This document shows, one piece after another, positions 6,539 to 29,768 of a stretch of 64,000 nt of DNA. Position 1 is the first letter of the stretch; each line of letters begins with the position of its first letter. A program made the position numbers and the translations under genes. A model generated the notes under the pieces. It searched no databases and was not told where the DNA came from. It saw only the letters and a program-made list of their open reading frames with translations. The stretch lies in contig NZ_CP060394.1 of assembly GCF_014274465.1 (NCBI RefSeq), positions 682,001 through 746,000 on the forward strand, in the 5' to 3' direction. The stretch is from Alloacidobacterium dinghuense. GTDB taxonomy: Bacteria; Acidobacteriota; Terriglobia; Terriglobales; Acidobacteriaceae.

Positions 6539-7012
6539 CTACTCCCGCACTTTTACAACGATGGTGCTGAATAGCGTCCCCTGGACAATTTTCAATTGAT
6601 GAGGGGTACCGGCGGGGATGTTTACAACATCGCCGACGGAAATTGTTTGGGAGTTTCCGTTACGAATGCTGATTCCTTTCGTTTCTCCATCGTCACCAGT
6701 CTTTGGATCGTCGATGACGCCGCCGGTGAGTAAAGTCGCTTGCCCCTGCGTAACGACAAATACATCATCATAGTGCGCGTGACTCTCAGCGCCTCCACTG
6801 GCTGTTCGCACGGAGAGCTTCAGCTGATGGCTCGTGTAGTCTCCCAGGGTTGATCCGCTGGTGCCTGAGGGCTGCGCTTTCGGAGCCAGGTCGGCAAGTT
6901 GCTTTTGAATATCCTGTGCTGAGAAATAGTCGGCCTTTTTCGAGTTGCTTTGTGCGTGTGCAGCGATGCACAGCAGCGTCAGCACAGATAAAACCACGAA
7001 TTGTCTCTTCAT
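6539..7012 (-). CDS. Secreted small cupin protein
   Basis: A 157-residue protein with a clear Sec signal peptide (MKRQFVVLSVLTLLCIAAHAQS). A single cupin domain covers the C-terminal two thirds: SHAHYDDVFVVTQG as the first metal-binding motif, and GDVVNIPAGTPHQLKI as the second. It ends 27 bases from the fucosidase stop (convergent) and starts 12 bases after the kduI stop, so it reads as the last gene of the GH105-kduI-cupin unit. The substrate is unknown. An exported sugar-binding or isomerising cupin acting before uptake is possible but not shown. Confidence 0.75.
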   Translation of the reverse strand: MKRQFVVLSVLTLLCIAAHAQSNSKKADYFSAQDIQKQLADLAPKAQPSGTSGSTLGDYTSHQLKLSVRTASGGAESHAHYDDVFVVTQGQATLLTGGVIDDPKTGDDGETKGISIRNGNSQTISVGDVVNIPAGTPHQLKIVQGTLFSTIVVKVRE

Positions 7013-7024
7013 CGCCTCTCCTGA

Positions 7025-7855
7025 CTACTGCAATCCAACAATCGGAACAGGATCCATGTCGGCGTAATCCTGGTTCTCACCGCCCATGCCCCAGCAAAAG
7101 CTATAGGCGCACGTTCCAGCACCGGCATGAATCGACCAGCCGGGCGAAACGGCAACATCATAGTTTTGCATTACGATATGTCGCGTCTCTTCACCGGGTC
7201 CCATCAGGTGAAAGACGCGTGCTTCTGGAGCGAGGTTGAAGTACATGTAGATTTCGGAGCGTCGCATGTGGGTATGCGGGGGCATCGTATTCCAGACGCT
7301 GCCGGGATGAAGATGGGTGACACCCATCACAAGTTGGCAGCTTTTTGCCCCGTCAAGAAAAACATACTTGTAGATCGTCCGTTTATTGCTTGTTTCAGCG
7401 GAGCCAAGCTCAGTGGGGTTCGCTCGTCCCTTTTGGACGAGTGTTGTCTGAAAGGTGGTGTGGGCTGGGTAACTTAGAAGATAGAAAATTGCGGGCGAGT
7501 GTGCGCTCTCCGAAGTGAATACGATCTTTGGACTACCGCGGCCGATGTATAGGCAGTCCAGATTATCCAGCGCGTAGGTGTCGTCTCCGACAGTTGTGCG
7601 GCCTCTTCCACCTATGTTGAGAACTCCTAGTTCACGGCGCTCTGTGAAGTAATCGGACTTCAATGCGCCGTCAGTTGGGAGCACGAGTGGCTGGACTGTG
7701 GGGGTAGCCATGCCGACGATTGCGCGATCAAGGTCAACATAGGCCAATTGGACAGATCCAGGTTGACAAAGAGAGCCAATCAGGAAGGCATCCCGTAATT
7801 CCGATGTTGTCATGCGCAAATATCGAACCGGATCGGCAAGTAAGTACGTCTTCAT
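7025..7855 (-). CDS. kduI: 5-keto-4-deoxyuronate isomerase
   Basis: KduI homologue of 276 residues, the usual length. It converts 5-keto-4-deoxyuronate (DKI) into 2,5-diketo-3-deoxygluconate (DKII), the substrate of KduD. The C-terminal cupin signature WNTMPPHTHMRRSEIYMYFNL (metal-binding His, His and Glu) is followed by EETRHIVMQNYDVAVSPGWSIHAGAGT with the fourth ligand, all typical of KduI. The N-terminal half (YLLADPVRYLRMTTSELRDAFLI) also matches. It is cytoplasmic, with no signal. It lies 39 bases downstream of the GH105 gene and is probably co-transcribed with it. Confidence 0.95.
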   Translation of the reverse strand: MKTYLLADPVRYLRMTTSELRDAFLIGSLCQPGSVQLAYVDLDRAIVGMATPTVQPLVLPTDGALKSDYFTERRELGVLNIGGRGRTTVGDDTYALDNLDCLYIGRGSPKIVFTSESAHSPAIFYLLSYPAHTTFQTTLVQKGRANPTELGSAETSNKRTIYKYVFLDGAKSCQLVMGVTHLHPGSVWNTMPPHTHMRRSEIYMYFNLAPEARVFHLMGPGEETRHIVMQNYDVAVSPGWSIHAGAGTCAYSFCWGMGGENQDYADMDPVPIVGLQ

Positions 7856-7894
7856 AACGTTTTTCGCTTCCCTTCAAGTACCGCAGACGGTGCA

Positions 7895-9841
7895 TTAATG
7901 CTTTCCCGGAAGTTGCTCCAGCAGCCAGCGAACGTATTCTTTGCCGCCTCCAAGATTGTCATAAGGTTGCGGCAGCTTTCTTCCGTCGGTGTATTCGTTG
8001 TAAAGCCAGGGATCGACGAAGGCAATCACCTTGCCCTTGCCGAACTGCGCTTCGGCCATCATCACATCGCCTTTGTTGTGCCAGATTGCAGTGGCAGGCT
8101 GGTTGAGCGTCAGCGTGCAAATCTCCTTCATAAAAAGGATATGAGGAGCGCGGAAGATAGGACCATCGCCATTAACGTCAACTCTTCCCATTTCATAATG
8201 ATCGCCGTCGACAGCATTGCGCAGCACGCTGTTAAAGTGCATGCCGAAGTGTTCCGCAAGAGTATTCAGATGCTCAATGTCCGCATGACTCGGATCGTTC
8301 TCCATGATGACCAGCAGGCCGCCCTGTTTGACCCACTCGGCGATTCTCGCGGCTGAGTCGGCGTCCATGTAATGTGGGTTTTTATTCCAGTTCAGGTTGT
8401 CGGGAGAGACGATGAGATAGATCTGAGCCTTACTCAGGTTCTGTACAGTCGGAGCCTCGTAGAGCGTGTCCGTCTTTAAGCCGTACTCCCGCAGCAGATG
8501 ACCGAAGAGGGAATAGCCGCTGTTGCTAAAGTCATTCCATTTGTAGTGGTAGGAGACCATCTGCCCGGTTGCATCTTTGCGCATCTGGCTGTTGAACCAT
8601 GCGTCGAGGAGAATCGTTTTGCCGTGGCCCAGCGCGGCCGTCTGTGCTGCCTCCATCTCAGTACTGGCCATCAGAAAGGCGCCGATGCCCTTTGGGTCAT
8701 TGCTGATAACTTCCTGACTTACATAGTAGGAGTAACTTCCATCATGAACCTTGTCAGTGCCCAGACCTATAGCTTTCACCGTTTCGGTGAGTGTAACTTC
8801 TCCCGTCGAATCTACTCTTGCGAATTGCTTCAGTATTCCCTGATAGGCGCGTGCTGCGGTCGATGAGTAGTTTGTAGAGAGATATCCGAGCCTGACACCT
8901 TTGGCGAACGCATAGGTGAACATGCAGGCAGCGGAGGATTCGAAGTAATTGTCTTTCGAGCCCGCCTTATCGACTACCTCATACCAAAGACCACTGTTCT
9001 TGTCTTGATATTTCGCAACGGCGGTGGCAAGCCGCTGCAATATGCCCAGCAGTTGTTCCCGGCCTGGGTCGTTGTCAGGGTAGTAGGGAAGTGTGTCGAC
9101 AAGGGCCATCATGTACCACCCCATGCCGCGCGCCCAGAAGTTCGGAGAAATTCCCGTCGTCTTATCTGCCCATATTTGCGTCTTGGTTTCGTCCCATCCG
9201 TGATGCAAAAGCCCGGTCTTTGGGTCGCGCGAATGTTTCTCCATCAGGACGAACTGCTGCGTAATATCTTCAAAGTCCTGCGGTTCATGAAAGGTGGCAG
9301 CATATTCCGCATAGAAGGGCTCCGCCATGTAGAGACCGTCGAGCCACATCTGCTGCGGATAGCGCTGTTTATGCCAGAATCCGCCATCCGAAGTGCGCGG
9401 ATGCTCCTTCAACTGCTGCCGAAGGAGCATTGCAGCCTTGTAGTATTTCGCATCCTGCGTTACTTCGTAGAGAAGGAGCAGCTCGCGGCCGAGCACGAGA
9501 TCGTCGAGCGCATTGTTCTCCGGTTTGTAAGTCGAGATCGAGCCGTCTTCATTGATAAACGGATCGATGGATTCCTTGATGTAGGTATAGTAGGCGCCGT
9601 TTGCTGAGTGATACCACGCGTCATTCATGCCCTGTAGTAGAACGCCTAACTCGTAATTCCAGACCCAGGGCTTGTCGTCTGAAACGAACTTTCCTTTCGG
9701 CCAGCGCTTGATGGTCGAGTCAGCCATCCGCTGTGACCACGGCAGTTCGTCCGCTCTTGCTTGCTGTAGGAGTCCTGTCCACAGCAAGAGAGACAGAATG
9801 AAGAATACAACCCAGCCGCGAGTGCCCCGTCGAAGAGGCAT
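7895..9841 (-). CDS. GH105 unsaturated uronyl hydrolase with extra C-terminal domain
   Basis: A secreted protein of about 648 residues from the ATG at 9841, whose product begins with a good signal peptide (RGWVVFFILSLLLWTGLL to QARA). A GTG at 9913 would add 24 residues. The first 400 mature residues are an alpha6/alpha6-barrel of the GH105/GH88 type: ALDDLVLGRELL, QQMWLDGLYMAEPF (expected catalytic Asp), FWARGMGWYMMALVD and YFESSAACMFTYA. GH105 enzymes release unsaturated galacturonate from lyase products, giving KduI substrate. The last 230 residues (from about GKTILLDAWFNSQ) look like a GATase/ThuA-type Rossmann domain with VSPDNLNWNKNP, ARIAEWVKQGGLLVIMEND and GKGKVIAFVDPWLYNEY. This makes it nearly twice the length of a plain GH105. 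Confidence 0.85.
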   Translation of the reverse strand: MPLRRGTRGWVVFFILSLLLWTGLLQQARADELPWSQRMADSTIKRWPKGKFVSDDKPWVWNYELGVLLQGMNDAWYHSANGAYYTYIKESIDPFINEDGSISTYKPENNALDDLVLGRELLLLYEVTQDAKYYKAAMLLRQQLKEHPRTSDGGFWHKQRYPQQMWLDGLYMAEPFYAEYAATFHEPQDFEDITQQFVLMEKHSRDPKTGLLHHGWDETKTQIWADKTTGISPNFWARGMGWYMMALVDTLPYYPDNDPGREQLLGILQRLATAVAKYQDKNSGLWYEVVDKAGSKDNYFESSAACMFTYAFAKGVRLGYLSTNYSSTAARAYQGILKQFARVDSTGEVTLTETVKAIGLGTDKVHDGSYSYYVSQEVISNDPKGIGAFLMASTEMEAAQTAALGHGKTILLDAWFNSQMRKDATGQMVSYHYKWNDFSNSGYSLFGHLLREYGLKTDTLYEAPTVQNLSKAQIYLIVSPDNLNWNKNPHYMDADSAARIAEWVKQGGLLVIMENDPSHADIEHLNTLAEHFGMHFNSVLRNAVDGDHYEMGRVDVNGDGPIFRAPHILFMKEICTLTLNQPATAIWHNKGDVMMAEAQFGKGKVIAFVDPWLYNEYTDGRKLPQPYDNLGGGKEYVRWLLEQLPGKH

Positions 9842-22992: not shown

Positions 22993-24087
22993 TTGGCCCA
23001 GCAAAAGATCAAGCGGCTCTACCTTATCCCAATCCTCTCCAAAGCGCTCGACATCCTGGAATTGCTGGAAGGCGAAAGACGCCCGATCACGCTTGAGGCC
23101 ATCTACCAGCGCTCGCACATTTCAAAAACCAGTGTCTATCGCATCCTGAAGACTTTTGTGCATCGTGGCTACGTTGCTCAATCGCCGGATGGCTCATATC
23201 GCCTGGTTTCACGGCCTAAGAAGATGCGATTCGGTTTCGCGGGCCAGAGTGCCGAAATGCCTTTTTCTGAAGCTGTCACCAGCAGTCTCCGTGCTGCTGC
23301 AGCGGCCTCAGGCGTAGAGTTGATGGTCCGCGACAATCGCTACGACGCCGATACTGCTGTTAAGAACGCGAAGGAATTTGTCACCGAAGGCGTCGATCTT
23401 GTCATCGAATTCCAGATTGAGGAGCATGTTGCGCCTTATCTTGCGCACATCATTTCGCGTGCGGGAATTCCGTTGATAGCGATTGACATTCCGCACCCGC
23501 ACGCCAGTTATTTCGGTGTCGATAACTTCCAGGTCGGCTTTGAGGCGGGTGAACTGCTGGCGCAGCACGCTATTTCCAAGTGGAAGAAGAAAGTGGACTG
23601 GGTGCTCGGCCTCGACGTGGCCGAAGCTGGATCGTTAGTGCAAAGCCGCATTACCGGTGCATTTGAAGGCCTTCGCTCACTGTTGCCGGAAATCGCGGAA
23701 GAGTTGCTTATCCGGCTTGACGGTCGCGGGATGCGCGAGACCAGCGCTCGCGTTGTCTCGGAGTTTCTCAGGAGACATGCGCGCAGTGACCGCATCCTGA
23801 TTGCCGCAGCCACCGATACCAGCGCGTTGGGAGCCCTGCAGGCCACCGTGGACGCACAGCGCGAAAAGACCATCGCCATCGTTGGGCAGGATTGTATTCC
23901 CGAGGTGCTCGAAGAAATGAAAAAGCCTCAAAGCCCGATCGTCGGTTCCATCTCGCATGAGGCGCATACTTATGGGCCACGGTTAATCCAACTCGGGGTC
24001 ACAATCCTCAGAGGACACACCGTGCCTCCATACAACTATGTTCAGCACCGCGTCGTCACTGCGAGCATGATGCAGGAGAGCGAGTAG
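22993..24087 (+). CDS. IclR-type HTH fused to a periplasmic-binding-protein domain
   Basis: A 364-residue regulator with a TTG start behind a strong GGAGGAG site. Residues 10-75 are a winged HTH of IclR type (SKALDILELLEGE, then ISKTSVYRILKTFVHRGYV). In place of the IclR effector domain, residues 85-355 look like a type 1 periplasmic-binding fold as in ribose-binding protein and LacI. This part has an opening MPFSEAVTSSLRAAAAASGVELMVRDN, the GVDLVIEFQ hinge region, PLIAIDIPHPHASYFGVDNFQVG, and a C-terminal lobe with GQDCIPEVLEEM and GSISHEAHTYG. No signal peptide precedes it, so the binding domain is intracellular and presumably senses a sugar-like ligand. Its targets are unknown. Confidence 0.82.
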   Translation: MAQQKIKRLYLIPILSKALDILELLEGERRPITLEAIYQRSHISKTSVYRILKTFVHRGYVAQSPDGSYRLVSRPKKMRFGFAGQSAEMPFSEAVTSSLRAAAAASGVELMVRDNRYDADTAVKNAKEFVTEGVDLVIEFQIEEHVAPYLAHIISRAGIPLIAIDIPHPHASYFGVDNFQVGFEAGELLAQHAISKWKKKVDWVLGLDVAEAGSLVQSRITGAFEGLRSLLPEIAEELLIRLDGRGMRETSARVVSEFLRRHARSDRILIAAATDTSALGALQATVDAQREKTIAIVGQDCIPEVLEEMKKPQSPIVGSISHEAHTYGPRLIQLGVTILRGHTVPPYNYVQHRVVTASMMQESE

Positions 24088-24842: not shown

Positions 24843-27569
24843 CTATGCTCCGCCATAGAGCTGAAAAGTTGCCCAGTAGAGCGGCTTGCGGAAGACATTT
24901 TGCGTGTGGAGCATGGCGAGTTTCGCGTCTCGCAAAGCGGCGTCCGGCCGGCGCCCGCCCGCGATCTCGCCATACATGTGGTCCATGATCTCGGGCGCCG
25001 CCGAATCGCTCACTTCCCACAGTGACCCGATGACGTAGTGCGAACCCGCCCGAAGAAATGCCCAGGAGAGCCCGACCAGCCCCTCTCCACCATAGATGCG
25101 CGATCCAGAACCATAGCAGGCGGAAATGGCAACAAGATCGGCATGCAGCGGATGCTGGATCACGTCGCGCGCGTAGAGCTTGAACGAATCGGGATTCGCA
25201 GGATTGCGCGTCAGTACAATCGCCGAGTCTAGAGGGCTGGCGCTGCTGCTGGTTCCGTGTGCGACAAAGTGAATCAGAGAGTATTCGCCCGGAGAACTGT
25301 CAGCATAAGCGGACGGGAGGGCCTGCTTTTGAACAATGACGCTTTCCTCGGTTGATGGAAAATGCCGGGCTACATTGGAAACTTCAGCAGAAGCATTCGG
25401 CAGGTCGGGAAACTTCTGGTCAGGTGAGACTGGGTTGCCGATCAAGAGAAGTTCTTTTTGGTTGTGCGCGTGCCTCTCCGGGTGAAATGAGTCGAGCAGT
25501 TTCAATGAACTGACGTTGGTAATGGTTGCGTCTTCGATCCAGTAATGGATTCCGCCGCCCGGAGCGAGCAGTGTTTCAAAGTTCAGGGTTGAGATGCTTC
25601 CATCAGGGATGATGAAAACTGGCGATCCTTTGGGAATCAGCGAAGCAGCAGGCTCGACCAGGATTCTGTACAAAGCCATGCCGTCGACATAGGCATCCGT
25701 GAGTGGGTCTCGCGAACCGAGGATGGCTCTCTGATACTTTTTCACGTGCGCATCGATCTCTTCTTGTGGTGGGAGCTTGAAGAAGTGTGTTCCAGATGAA
25801 TTCACTGCCCAAAGATATGATTCCTGTGCCGCCAAAGTGTAGACCAGAATCGTCCCGTGGAGTCTGCGGGCAGTTCCTCGTACATCTAGAGATTTCTTGA
25901 TCGCGAGGTTGAAGTCCGGAGAGGCTACTCCCAAGCCTTCCTCCAACGTGCGCGCACGGCCAAGGTCAAGCCACTGCAACGCCTCGTCGGTTTTGTTGTG
26001 ATTGACCAGGAAGCGTATGTAGTCGTCATACAGTTGATCGGCGTGAGTGGAGAAGGGCAGTTTTGATTCTTCTTTTGTGATGGTCTTCCTTTGCGTCTCG
26101 AATGTAGTAATCGAACTGCGATACCAGGAATCAGCCATCGCGGAATTATTGGCTTCCGCGTAGAGGTTTGCCAGCGCACCCTCGACCTGCCATTGCAGAG
26201 ACGGCTTAATTGCTGGGTCTTTGTTTAAATTCATCAGAATTGAGACTGAGTCGGCGGGTTTCTGTTGGCGTTCGGCAATGAGCCCCTTAAGGAACGTGGC
26301 ATCCATAGCATCGGAGGTTCTTCCTGAAGCACGTGCAATCGATAGTGCCTTTTCCGTGTGTTCTATGGATAAATCAAGGTTATTCAATTGCAAGAAAAGT
26401 TCTGCGAGAGCAATATGGGCTGCCGCTTGTATTTCGGCATCCTGGACCGTATCTGCAATATGCAAAGAGTTGCTGTAATTGGTTTCTGCGTCCGTTAAAT
26501 GTCCAAGGCGGTAGAGTGACAGTCCCATGTTTTCTAGCCATAGCATTCTGTCGTGCGCTTCCCCAATGGAAACTGCCTCTTGCTCTGCTTTGCCAAATCC
26601 GGCAAGTGCCTGTTCAAAATTTCCCAGCATGTAGTCAGCCCAGGCAACATTCCCCTGGGCTTTTTCGAGGATGCTGCGCGCATTGATGCTTTGGGCGGTT
26701 TTAGACGCATCATCCGACCAGTCGAGCGCTTCATCGAAGCGCTCTCGTTGGAGAGCAAGCCAACCAAGGTTCAGAAGAGTTACGGTCTGTTGATACGTAT
26801 CGTTCTGTTTGCGGGCGAAATCAAGGCTTTGACGAAACATTTCTTCGGCGTGACCGAGGTTGCCGCGCTGAATGTCAACAAAGCCCCAGCTGTTAAGTAT
26901 TCTGCTGATGAGTGGCGAGCGGTTGAGATCAGAAGAAGCTTTAAGGCTATTGAGCAGGGTGTCTGCTTTATTCAGAGCGACGCGGGCTTCATGGTCTTGG
27001 CCGAGTGATGCATAGACTCTAGCCTGCAGCAGAATGCGCTCAAGTGCGATGTCGGATATGGCTAGGTGGGTGGGCAGGTCTCCGGAGAGGAGTGAGATAA
27101 CCTCCTTACCCTTGCCCTCCCGCACTAAGATCGCAGCGTCAAGAAGCCGAAACTTCCATGCCCAGTCGGGATTCTGGTCCTGCAGACCGGCAGTGGCTCG
27201 GATTGCTTCCTCGTGCGCCTTGTCAAGGTCACCTTGGATTGCGAGCTTTTCCACTTTGGCGTAGACGGTCTCAGGATGTGAAACAACAGCGGGTTTACAG
27301 CCAACGAGACCGCTCAGCCCAATTAAGGAAGCTATTCCTAAGGAAGCCCACCGTCTCCCGATCCATTGGAGCGCACTGTAGCGGCAGAAATGGCGCCTCC
27401 GACCGGCGATCCCAGCTGTGCGCGAACCATTGACACCGTGAAGGTCTTCTGATGAACAATGACCTCTCCGAAAAAGACCTTGCCAAATCCCGGAATGTAA
27501 ATGGCATTCCCGCAGATCACGCCGGGAAATCCTTCCGGCATCTCGGGGAGTTGGTCGATCAGGGAGCAT
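24843..27569 (-). CDS. TPR-CHAT caspase-like protein, probable lipoprotein
   Basis: A long protein (908 residues in the longest frame). The N-terminal part to about residue 90 is unlike a protein and overlaps the preceding 299-residue gene. The real product probably begins near 27340, where a lipoprotein signal is seen (RRWASLGIASLIGLSGLVGC, lipobox LVGC). About 450 residues of TPR-type helical repeats follow (for example ILNSWGFVDIQRGNLGHAEEMFRQSL). The C-terminal CHAT domain has the HHH-type strand SLIHFVAHGTSS (His 772) and AISACYGSG (Cys 819), the caspase-like catalytic pair, and the closing YGGEGLVGLSWAFLRAGS. CHAT proteins are predicted or proven cysteine proteases in signalling. It is last in a cassette with an ECF sigma factor and anti-sigma factor. 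No ATG, GTG or TTG lies between 27569 and a GTG at 27254. Confidence 0.82.
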   Translation of the reverse strand: MLPDRPTPRDAGRISRRDLRECHLHSGIWQGLFRRGHCSSEDLHGVNGSRTAGIAGRRRHFCRYSALQWIGRRWASLGIASLIGLSGLVGCKPAVVSHPETVYAKVEKLAIQGDLDKAHEEAIRATAGLQDQNPDWAWKFRLLDAAILVREGKGKEVISLLSGDLPTHLAISDIALERILLQARVYASLGQDHEARVALNKADTLLNSLKASSDLNRSPLISRILNSWGFVDIQRGNLGHAEEMFRQSLDFARKQNDTYQQTVTLLNLGWLALQRERFDEALDWSDDASKTAQSINARSILEKAQGNVAWADYMLGNFEQALAGFGKAEQEAVSIGEAHDRMLWLENMGLSLYRLGHLTDAETNYSNSLHIADTVQDAEIQAAAHIALAELFLQLNNLDLSIEHTEKALSIARASGRTSDAMDATFLKGLIAERQQKPADSVSILMNLNKDPAIKPSLQWQVEGALANLYAEANNSAMADSWYRSSITTFETQRKTITKEESKLPFSTHADQLYDDYIRFLVNHNKTDEALQWLDLGRARTLEEGLGVASPDFNLAIKKSLDVRGTARRLHGTILVYTLAAQESYLWAVNSSGTHFFKLPPQEEIDAHVKKYQRAILGSRDPLTDAYVDGMALYRILVEPAASLIPKGSPVFIIPDGSISTLNFETLLAPGGGIHYWIEDATITNVSSLKLLDSFHPERHAHNQKELLLIGNPVSPDQKFPDLPNASAEVSNVARHFPSTEESVIVQKQALPSAYADSSPGEYSLIHFVAHGTSSSASPLDSAIVLTRNPANPDSFKLYARDVIQHPLHADLVAISACYGSGSRIYGGEGLVGLSWAFLRAGSHYVIGSLWEVSDSAAPEIMDHMYGEIAGGRRPDAALRDAKLAMLHTQNVFRKPLYWATFQLYGGA

Positions 27570-28237
27570 TGAATATAGTCTCTACCATTCAGCCCCTGTT
27601 CTGAGTCAATCCAATGAAAATGATGCCGAATCCAGCCGGGGAGCGAGGCTCCTTCATACTTCTCGGAGTATTTGTCCTTGGCCTGTTTCTTTTGCGCCGT
27701 CACCTTTTCCAGGAACTTCTCCTGTCGGGGCCAGGTCTTTTTGGGATACTGCTTTTTCGGGTCGGATTCGCCTGAGCTGTCGTGATCTGCAAAAAGATCG
27801 TAACGAATGACTGGCGTGATCTTTGTACCGCTGATGCGCAGGTTATCGAACTGCGAGCCGATCACTGAGATTGTGGGTTCGCCCCCATCCACTGGGTGAG
27901 CGACGGACAGCTGCCCTACTACCTTATCCGCTGTGATCACTTCAAGGATGTTCAGTCCTTCGATCGTGGCGGTAACTTGGGTGGTAAACGGACCCTCATC
28001 CCCATCCTTCTTGGCCCCGGAGACATGCGTGCTCTCGGATATATAGCTAACAATGTTTTTCCACTTGCGGCCCTTCCGTTGTCTCTCTAAAAATCCTCCA
28101 ACGATCGGAAGGGAAATAGACGTTTGTGAAGGGATGAAGCCGTTGAATGGGCGATTGATTGTGCCGCCGATCGGATTGGCATCGGCATGGTAAAGAAAAT
28201 TCCGTTGGATCGGGTCATCTGTGGGGTTTTCAGGCAT
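27338..28237 (-). CDS. Unrecognised 299-residue protein in the sigma/CHAT cassette
   Basis: No family is recognised. The protein is soluble, has no signal peptide or membrane helix, and is rich in beta-type and polar segments. The middle (about 165-205) is highly charged and Lys-rich (KKQYPKKTWPRQEKFLEKV, KKQAKDKYSEKYEG). Near the C-terminus are GWIRHHFHWIDSE and a Gly-rich stretch (YIPGFGKVFFGEVIVHQK) that could be a domain edge. Its 3' end runs into the open frame of the CHAT gene, and it starts 32 bases after the anti-sigma gene. Position between an anti-sigma factor and a caspase-like protease makes it a candidate substrate or adaptor of that protease; this is inference from gene order only. 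Confidence 0.65.
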   Translation of the reverse strand: MPENPTDDPIQRNFLYHADANPIGGTINRPFNGFIPSQTSISLPIVGGFLERQRKGRKWKNIVSYISESTHVSGAKKDGDEGPFTTQVTATIEGLNILEVITADKVVGQLSVAHPVDGGEPTISVIGSQFDNLRISGTKITPVIRYDLFADHDSSGESDPKKQYPKKTWPRQEKFLEKVTAQKKQAKDKYSEKYEGASLPGWIRHHFHWIDSEQGLNGRDYIQCSLIDQLPEMPEGFPGVICGNAIYIPGFGKVFFGEVIVHQKTFTVSMVRAQLGSPVGGAISAATVRSNGSGDGGLP

Positions 28238-28269
28238 AACCTTTCCGTTTCTCGGTTTGAATTCGTGAG

Positions 28270-28962
28270 TTAATGAATCTGCAAAAGGAAGCGATAGCGC
28301 ACGATATCAACTGGCGCGCTTTTCTGCGGGTCTGACGTCACGCCCTGGATCAGGAGCGTATTCTGGCCCGCATCTGTGGTGTCCGCAGGTACTTGAATCG
28401 GAACGCTGTCGGCAACCTGCGAAGGGGGAATCTGCAGCTGCCAGACCATCTTTCCAGATGGAGAATACAGCGAGCAGAGATATCCCGAATAGCGATTATC
28501 TCCCGGCACATCGACAGACAGCAGGAATGATTCGTGTGCTTTGGCGACGACTGTGCGTATTTCCGCGCCGCGGCTTTGTCCGTCAACAAGCGTGATCGAC
28601 GGCAGGATGCGCGGCTGCGCTACCTGAGCGACCTGCTGCTCCAGGTGTGGAAACGTAACAATGTTCTGGAATCCGATTATGAGCAGCATGGCTGCCATTG
28701 CCGGAACGGCAAACATGGGTTGTAAGAGCGACGGGAAGCTGAAGAGCTTGCCTTTCGACTTCGGCTCCGCAACTGTGACGAATGTTGGGCGAGCAAGTTC
28801 CTTACGAGCTTGAGCGATAAAGACGGCAGCCGCACGCAAGTCGGTTGCACATTCTTCGCAGCCGAAGTAGTGCTCTTCGAATGCTGCGCGTGCCTCCGGG
28901 CTCAACTCCTCGAGTAGATACTTTTCTACTGCGTACTGATCTACAGCTTCAGTGTGGTCCAT
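28270..28962 (-). CDS. Zinc-finger anti-sigma factor, membrane-anchored
   Basis: A 230-residue protein with the anti-sigma zinc-finger signature at residues 26-40 (EEHYFGCEECATDLR: His-x3-Cys-x2-Cys). A single transmembrane helix lies at about 80-102 (PMFAVPAMAAMLLIIGFQNIV). A periplasmic part of about 125 residues has beta-rich, immunoglobulin-like character (ESFLLSVDVPGDNRYSGYLCSLYSPSGKMVW). It follows the sigma factor by 12 bases, as anti-sigma genes usually do. It is expected to hold the sigma factor at the membrane until a signal releases it. Confidence 0.85.
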   Translation of the reverse strand: MDHTEAVDQYAVEKYLLEELSPEARAAFEEHYFGCEECATDLRAAAVFIAQARKELARPTFVTVAEPKSKGKLFSFPSLLQPMFAVPAMAAMLLIIGFQNIVTFPHLEQQVAQVAQPRILPSITLVDGQSRGAEIRTVVAKAHESFLLSVDVPGDNRYSGYLCSLYSPSGKMVWQLQIPPSQVADSVPIQVPADTTDAGQNTLLIQGVTSDPQKSAPVDIVRYRFLLQIH

Positions 28963-28974
28963 GGATTTCGAGCC

Positions 28975-29607
28975 TCAACAGAATAGTGCAGAGAAAAGCC
29001 AAACGTATCGCGGGAAATTCCCGCCCGAACCCCCCGAAGGTCCCGATGAAGCCATGTGTTTGACATAAAACGATTTAAATGAGAGTTTCGCGCGGTGTAG
29101 AAGCACTCTTAGATACTCGCGATCCACTCCGAATTCGGCGCAGACCTCATCCTTGTCGCGCTCTTCGAGGAAAATGCTCTTCAGCAATTGCCGATCCCGG
29201 TCGCTCAGCTTGCCCAGAATTTCACGGACAGTCTTCTGCGTGTCCTTTGAAACAAGGGTATCCAGCACGTCCGTGTCTTCTGATTGGATATCCATCTCTG
29301 AGGCGTCTTCCATTGCCTCGCTTTTCGAATGCGAGCGGTAGTATTCAAGCAACACGTGGTTGCAGATGGAATTAACCAGCGCCCCCAGCGCAGAGGCGTT
29401 GCGAACACCCTCCTTGCCGCGCAGGAGCACAAAAATACGGGCAAATGTCTCCTGCCGGACGTCTTCTATCGCATCTCTGGAGTTTAGCCGGGAACGTAGC
29501 TTCAGATGAATCAGCTCACTGAAGTAATGAACAAAGTGCTCCTCAGTGCGGCGATCGCCCGTGCGCAGACTATCGAGGTAAGCGTCATCGAACTTTTGGA
29601 ACTGCAA
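28975..29607 (-). CDS. ECF-type RNA polymerase sigma factor
   Basis: A 210-residue sigma-70 family protein with region 2 (DDAYLDSLRTGDRRTEEHFVHYF to EDVRQETFARIFVLL, including the polymerase-binding core) and region 4 (ILGKLSDRDRQLLKSIFLEERDKDEVCAEFGVDREYLRVLLHRAKLSFKSFY) with its helix-turn-helix. The tail is odd: after region 4 comes a Gly/Ser-rich linker (SSGPSGGSGGN) and a hydrophobic end (RYVWLFSALFC), which most ECF factors lack. It is the first gene of the four-gene cassette and presumably directs its own operon. The promoter in 29608-29768 was not identified. Confidence 0.9.
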   Translation of the reverse strand: MQFQKFDDAYLDSLRTGDRRTEEHFVHYFSELIHLKLRSRLNSRDAIEDVRQETFARIFVLLRGKEGVRNASALGALVNSICNHVLLEYYRSHSKSEAMEDASEMDIQSEDTDVLDTLVSKDTQKTVREILGKLSDRDRQLLKSIFLEERDKDEVCAEFGVDREYLRVLLHRAKLSFKSFYVKHMASSGPSGGSGGNFPRYVWLFSALFC

Positions 29608-29768
29608 GCCATAACCCTCAAAATAAAGTGCTTTTCTGGCCGTGACAGCAAATGCCCAATGGCAAAACTATACATTGCTGCAGCATAACCGCAGTCAATT
29701 AAGTGGAAATCCGGTCGTTTTGAGGATAGAGGGAGAGCGGCCCGAAGGTCGCTCTCAATGTGGAATGG

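Follow-up and report, generated by a model that had tools for sequence, protein, structure and literature searches.

The cassette described here lies in a 64,000-nucleotide (nt) stretch of the Alloacidobacterium dinghuense genome (hereafter the window; positions 682001-746000 of NZ_CP060394.1, the one contig of a 6.27 Mb genome). Four open reading frames (ORFs) run head to tail on its minus strand, and encode an extracytoplasmic function (ECF) sigma factor, a zf-HC2 anti-sigma factor, a 299-residue protein that we call X299, and a protein that joins tetratricopeptide repeats (TPR) to a caspase-like CHAT domain (Table 1). An earlier sequence-only reading had described this close packing, and all four ORFs are where it placed them; it was silent on the 232 nt that the X299 and TPR-CHAT genes share in different frames.

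Table 1. The cassette, its gene overlap and a second ECF/CHAT unit of the same genome (window positions, except in the last row)
Feature	Position	Strand	Remark
ECF-type sigma factor, 210 aa	28975..29607	-	TIGR02937; first cassette gene; listed TTG start (predicted)
zf-HC2 (ZAS-type) membrane anti-sigma factor, 230 aa	28270..28962	-	PF13490, H-x3-C-x2-C, predicted transmembrane segment 84-102
X299, 299-aa beta-rich protein	27338..28237	-	AlphaFold2 model; partial choice-of-anchor P match (NF040603)
TPR-CHAT, 908 aa from ATG at 27569 within the X299 gene	24843..27569	-	CHAT and TPR profiles
Dual-coding overlap, 232 nt	27338..27569	-	X299 3' end (frame 0) and TPR-CHAT 5' end (frame -1)
Second ECF/CHAT unit	L173 3356-7060 = G000:C1:5316355-5320056		Own genome

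X299 homologues were found in 27 of 150 genomes (its own included), and the order sigma factor, anti-sigma factor, X299, TPR-CHAT holds in all 27 loci of this first set, which comprises the window and 26 fetched stretches. A second set came from searching named genomes with an alignment of TPR-CHAT and consists of the best 80 of 214 relatives, at least 9 of them contigs already in the first set; 79 of these 80 are labelled Acidobacteriota, and L113 is labelled as a gammaproteobacterial metagenome-assembled genome that may be mis-binned. The full order was present in 70 of the 80; of the 10 without it, 7 run into a contig end. L113 and L123 carry X299 and TPR-CHAT, with the overlap kept and no sigma or anti-sigma gene nearby, and L083 carries CHAT alone. 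Among 396 genomes drawn over the phylum, X299 occurred in 23, of which 7 lie outside the window's family and 5 of these 7 have the full order (at the thresholds used L169 shows only X299 and CHAT, and the L170 contig ends after the anti-sigma gene). No neighbouring gene family recurred in more than 9 of 65 loci. Together these counts mark the unit as real, discrete and old. Gene-order conservation in relatives, which the sequence-only reading had set as its own test, thus holds whether loci are collected by the third gene or by the fourth. The cassette is a conserved four-gene unit carried by soil bacteria of the phylum Acidobacteriota. The 103 loci with both X299 and TPR-CHAT were reduced to 92 non-redundant loci at 90 percent, which serve for the counts out of 92 below.

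The sigma factor matches its TIGR02937 model above cut-off (50.1 bits against 42.9, E 2.4e-13), and Pfam sigma models match it below cut-off only. The anti-sigma factor scores 26.9 bits with PF13490 (cut-off 22.2) and has a single hydrophobic segment by hydropathy followed by an outer domain of about 128 residues, in agreement with the zinc-finger protein with one membrane helix that had been proposed. Its zinc-finger residues H31, C35 and C38 are invariant in the 27 first-set loci, and hydropathy gives one transmembrane segment in 23 of these homologues, two in 3 and none in 1. From the families and the adjacency of the genes we infer that the sigma factor is probably bound and inhibited by this zf-HC2 neighbour. 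In 38 of 84 loci the DNA near the sigma gene contains a TGnTAn[AG][CG]T box (mean 0.94 and maximum 4 in 50 base shuffles); it is housekeeping-like and would suggest that the cassette is read by the housekeeping sigma factor. Upstream of its sigma gene the window has TATAGT at 29667-29672 (minus strand), immediately preceded by TG, and as this falls off the counted pattern we draw little from the promoter box.

The TPR-CHAT protein matches PF12770 at 175.8 bits (cut-off 24, E 1.7e-51) and TPR models as well. The His-Cys pair ascribed to it is present as His771 (HFVAHG) and Cys818 (SACYG), and both residues are invariant in 89 of 89 loci of a family that is otherwise divergent (mean column identities of 42 and 45 percent). 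This count leaves out three of the 92 loci, two at contig ends and L031, whose CHAT gene (6966-9652, relative G020) is broken over two frames through either a real break or a sequencing error. In the window the chain begins with an Arg-rich tail, continues into a membrane segment with a lipobox-like LVGC (Cys91) at its end, and then enters the TPR and CHAT parts. An N-terminal membrane segment was found in 87 of 92 loci by a crude hydropathy measure and a lipobox-like Cys in 67 of 92 by a loose pattern; both features also occur in many loci where TPR-CHAT starts independently, with a short signal sequence of the usual sort. Taken together, the segment and the Cys suggest that TPR-CHAT should face the periplasm, unlike Csx29 of type III-E CRISPR systems, and we read its topology as N-in, with the TPR-CHAT part outside the inner membrane. 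The tail, which is encoded by the overlap, spans 67-103 residues with a median net charge of +8.5 in 70 loci, and Arg makes up 17 percent of its first 60 residues.

X299 had been described as having no recognisable family, which needs a small correction. Residues 75-141 match the NCBIfam model NF040603 (choice-of-anchor P) at 31.1 bits (cut-off 27), although this match spans only model positions 56-121 of 185; 34 of 57 family members scanned, the window's included, match the same model at E <= 0.001. Choice-of-anchor P proteins are exported and carry a C-terminal surface anchor, whereas neither a signal peptide nor such an anchor was seen in X299: no signal peptide was apparent by eye in 27 N-termini, and 25 of 27 homologues have no transmembrane segment by hydropathy. 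The AlphaFold2 model, built from 57 sequences, is beta-rich with a helical insert (mean predicted local distance difference test, pLDDT, 91) and found no PDB fold match of weight (best Foldseek E 0.03; VIA-align Z 4.0), which does not establish that the modelled fold is new. The only X299 match in the host genome is the one in the cassette.

The most surprising part of the cassette is the overlap of its last two genes, a conserved dual-coding arrangement that is new here. TPR-CHAT is read in the -1 frame of X299, and this frame stays open across the X299 end. A start just past the X299 stop, which holds for many of the 22 loci without the overlap, was rejected for the window, where the first ATG, GTG or TTG in the TPR-CHAT frame beyond that stop is a GTG at residue 106, past the membrane segment. 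Two loci, L109 (4909-6989) and L111 (5571-7034), contain a second, partial X299 match, which is the one overlapping TPR-CHAT; since both were counted as non-overlapping, the figure of 22 is slightly too high. The -1 frame is open for at least 229 nt in 70 of the 92 loci, and this recurrence led us to reject a frameshift or assembly error at the junction. In the overlap loci the start codon is made of the wobble base of the codon before a conserved X299 Cys plus the TG of that Cys (CSL motif; codon 223 and Cys224 in the window). It sits 202-310 nt before the X299 end, and the open frame reaches it in 70 of 70 loci, with ATG in 46, GTG in 12, TTG in 6, CTG in 1 and no Cys in 5.

Three signs of selection support use of this start, each computed on overlap and non-overlap loci alike and not just on the group defined by its open frame. 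The first is codon choice: the wobble base is A in 46 of the 65 overlap loci with the Cys, against 12.3 (standard deviation, sd, 2.9) expected from the codon usage of the same genes, and in 7 of 18 non-overlap loci against 3.8 expected. The second is Shine-Dalgarno pairing, which upstream of the overlap start averages -4.75 kcal/mol, compared with -4.78 at X299's own start; none of 86 control offsets pairs as strongly (mean -2.96, strongest -3.91). The equivalent site of the 18 non-overlap loci gives -3.87 kcal/mol, so the X299 codons themselves make part of the Shine-Dalgarno-like signal, which weakens the case. The third is stop avoidance under synonymous shuffling of 90 loci of both kinds (two of the 92 were dropped for unclear bases or a short region): downstream of the start 30 stops were found in the -1 frame against 238.7 (sd 13.0) expected, while +1-frame stops numbered 319 against 288.4. 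The overlap loci contribute 0 against 173.4 to the downstream count, partly by definition of the group. Two further results temper this sign, in that -1 stops are also fewer downstream in the 21 non-overlap loci (30 against 65.4 expected) and upstream of the start (588 against 799.2). The upstream ratio of 0.74 points to a background codon-pair effect, and the downstream ratio of 0.13 lies far below it.

There is only weak protein-level constraint on the Arg-rich tail. Among 19 disjoint pairs, 14 show higher conservation of fourfold sites within the overlap than upstream of it (pooled 0.61 vs 0.54), as do 3 of 5 non-overlap pairs (0.49 vs 0.51); for the full 94 overlap pairs the figures come to 0.50 and 0.47. 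On a FastTree phylogeny of 97 rows, which has long branches and on which L165 (208 nt) and L166 (163 nt) were set to overlap by hand, the overlap state changes 15 times against a shuffled mean of 23.2, and all 29 rows of the clade to which the window belongs have the overlap. That TPR-CHAT is instead produced by -1 ribosomal frameshifting, as an X299-TPR-CHAT fusion with no internal initiation, would agree with the want of a start codon just past the window's X299 stop and with a CHAT frame of -1 in 70 of 70 overlap loci (true by definition of the group), but is very improbable given a start codon that appears chosen, Shine-Dalgarno pairing equal to that of X299's own start, 27 junctions in which visual inspection showed no slippery motif, and a frame that opens 30 nt or less upstream of the start in 28 of the 70 loci. 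The evidence thus supports an overlap that is conserved and, as judged from these sequence statistics, under selection. A few other long same-strand overlaps are known, among them rnpA/rpmH in Thermus and comS in srfA, so this one would have forerunners. In a survey covering 338 prokaryotic genomes, none of 715 same-strand overlaps longer than 60 bp turned out to be real (PMC2478687); an overlap of 202-310 nt that many genera have retained and that bears three signs of use offers a natural test of that claim.

What the cassette does may be judged from its relatives, and here the sequence-only reading had looked to type III-E CRISPR systems, in which a TPR-CHAT protein with a His-Cys pair and an ECF-like sigma factor likewise share a locus. 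There Csx29 is reported to cut Csx30, an inhibitor of the ECF-like CASP-sigma (PMC10028731). The TPR-CHAT model without its tail (mean pLDDT 87.7) does have a Csx29-like fold, with Csx29 among its Foldseek matches in the PDB (E 4e-12 and weaker, TMq 0.34-0.42) next to separase, and VIA-align superposes 542 residues of Csx29 at Z 26.7 and a root-mean-square deviation (rmsd) of 8.4. The top two Foldseek matches are entries of DdvA (8rot and 8rw5; E 6e-15, TMq 0.52-0.56), and when a CHAT-only profile was searched against PDB sequences DdvA came first (E 0.063), followed by separase, with no Csx29 row at E <= 10. The cassette also differs from type III-E in the membrane segment of its CHAT protein and in its zf-HC2 anti-sigma factor, with which no Csx30-like inhibitor is needed. 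Csx30 is absent from the 15 phmmer rows (E <= 1) of X299 against PDB sequences, including the Csx30 entry 8eey, a search that involved no direct comparison of the two proteins. No CRISPR part was seen in a limited search: a Pfam scan showed four neighbouring window proteins not to be Cas proteins and no Cas1 match was found in the host genome, neither search extending to Cas7-11 or CRISPR arrays. The only match of defence-system models to the cassette was a generic TPR model. The link between the CHAT protein and ECF sigma control was the right idea, then, in view of a conserved four-gene unit with an intact CHAT dyad; the special kinship to type III-E is not supported in the form put forward, and the cassette is better not classed as a 'CRISPR-free relative of type III-E'. 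We would replace it, with confidence and doubt in equal measure, by a split switch of the DdvA kind.

DdvA, a transmembrane protein from Myxococcus xanthus, is described as an anti-sigma factor whose inactivation activates its ECF sigma partner DdvS, the signal being unknown (PMC4374960). Sequence alignment shows in it the H-x3-C-x2-C motif, TPR, and a CHAT domain with the His and Cys of the dyad. All of this lies on one chain, whereas the cassette has its anti-sigma factor and TPR-CHAT on separate chains, gives the former an outer domain of its own and adds X299; the comparison draws on PDB titles and one sequence alignment. Earlier work reportedly ties DdvS to CRISPR-Cas expression in Myxococcus. 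In its excerpted text, PMC8616872 makes no mention of DdvS. ECF sigma genes near CHAT, subtilase or carboxypeptidase genes have already been published as the ECF54 group, which is described in PMC8999054 as having no anti-sigma factor, whereas the cassette has one in 27 of 27 loci. No description of the cassette itself was found among the open-licence PMC matches listed.

The host genome also encodes the one-chain form that the cassette lacks. Its only other CHAT match above cut-off, P0005 (1234 aa), combines two H-x3-C-x2-C motifs, a transmembrane segment, TPR and CHAT, with a zf-HC2 match just under cut-off (21.6 vs 22.2 bits), and its gene begins 54 nt after an ECF gene. The only PDB sequence matched by P0005 at E <= 1e-5 is DdvA (6.6e-8, summed over weak stretches); as far as the alignment shows, it has the DdvA architecture. 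Searching 100 genomes gave 9 matches in 8 of them, its own included; 7 of the 9 have the motif and the transmembrane segment, and all 7 adjoin a preceding gene that matches the ECF model, 3 of them below cut-off. By joining a zf-HC2 anti-sigma factor and TPR-CHAT in one chain, P0005 fits a topology with the zinc finger inside and CHAT outside. A clostripain-like Peptidase_C11 gene adjoins this unit on the opposite strand (L173 7282-8931).

These comparisons suggest that the cassette encodes a DdvA-like sigma-factor switch which spans the membrane and has its parts divided among several chains, a reading that we hold to be about evenly poised between right and wrong. The zinc finger of the anti-sigma factor would hold the sigma factor at the membrane, and TPR-CHAT would be anchored with its TPR-CHAT part in the periplasm, where the TPR superhelix could sense an envelope or extracellular signal. 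On a trigger, CHAT would make the site-1 cut in the anti-sigma factor's outer domain, and an M50-type intramembrane protease and cytoplasmic proteases would then free the sigma factor; M50 peptidases are present in the host genome, as they are in all 14 control genomes. The logic of an outer and then an intramembrane protease is like the DegS/RseP control of RseA and sigma E mentioned in PMC10028731, except that CHAT is a caspase-like cysteine peptidase and the two steps here are a proposal. Cleavage of the anti-sigma factor by CHAT is possible, and it is inferred less firmly than the hold of the zf-HC2 domain on the sigma factor. The X299 3' end shared with the TPR-CHAT start would couple synthesis of both proteins. 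For X299 we can only guess at a role as an adaptor, an inner-side gate or a partner of CHAT; perhaps it pairs with the Arg-rich tail of TPR-CHAT on the inner side. A fuller version, in which a caspase-like site-1 protease in a split DdvA-like switch is coupled to X299 by the exceptionally long overlap of about 67-103 codons and its Arg-rich cytoplasmic tail holds X299 at the membrane, the two forming a physical pair with X299 inside and CHAT outside, is unlikely to be right in every part.

Several observations weigh against a split DdvA-like switch. The structural fit to DdvA is globally low (TMq 0.52-0.56, rmsd 9-19) and the sequence match weak, at the E value of 0.063 given above, and the 50 rows listed by VIA-align include Rap/NprR, LGN-type TPR proteins and Csx29 and no DdvA. 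The placement of TPR-CHAT is read from hydropathy and a motif, and a tail of 67-103 residues ahead of a signal sequence is unusual. X299, having no export signal, seems to place one partner in another compartment. No ECF-type autoregulated promoter stood out at the cassette loci, and L113, L123 and L083 indicate that the parts can occur apart.

TPR-CHAT could also be a sensor only. As an envelope sensor or scaffold it would touch the outer domain of the anti-sigma factor and alter its grip on the sigma factor with no proteolysis of the regulator, the dyad serving another substrate. We regard this as rather unlikely, though it accords with the activation of DdvS when DdvA is inactivated (PMC4374960) and with the resemblance of the TPR part to the peptide-sensing Rap/NprR proteins (VIA-align Z 29-32, values common for helical repeats); it is harder to square with two catalytic residues that stay invariant while the family around them diverges. 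Distinctly less probable is a cytoplasmic, Csx30-like scheme in which the sigma factor is freed, with no CRISPR involvement, once TPR-CHAT has cut either X299 or the anti-sigma factor's inner part. X299 and TPR-CHAT do form the tightest pair of the cassette, since they have coding DNA in common and stay together without the sigma gene in L113 and L123, Csx29 is among the best structural matches, and the cleavage of Csx30 by Csx29 (PMC10028731) provides a precedent. This scheme runs up against the N-terminal membrane segment in 87 of 92 loci, an Arg-rich tail that points to N-in, C-out, a zf-HC2 anti-sigma factor already present in 27 of 27 loci, the rank of DdvA ahead of Csx29 in Foldseek and the lack of a Cas1 match in the genome; moreover, as X299 has neither signal peptide nor transmembrane segment, an outward-facing CHAT could cut it only if the two shared a compartment. 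That TPR-CHAT and X299 are an effector pair (for instance a cell-surface or self-killing protease and its partner), the output of the sigma switch and not its input, draws on the same two loci without sigma and anti-sigma genes and is quite doubtful in view of the housekeeping-like -10 box near the sigma gene (38 of 84 loci, the window's own box off pattern) and of a one-chain form that ties CHAT to the anti-sigma side.

With the cassette, a CHAT protein turns up in seemingly ordinary envelope signalling of a soil phylum that is large and little studied, and the question whether transcription is controlled by a caspase-like protein can be asked away from CRISPR. Because one genome holds both the one-chain and the split form, the link between them is testable by simple genetics. 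Elsewhere in the window, the plus-strand ORF at 22993-24087 fuses an IclR-type helix-turn-helix to a periplasmic-binding-protein-like domain, a pairing that seems unusual.

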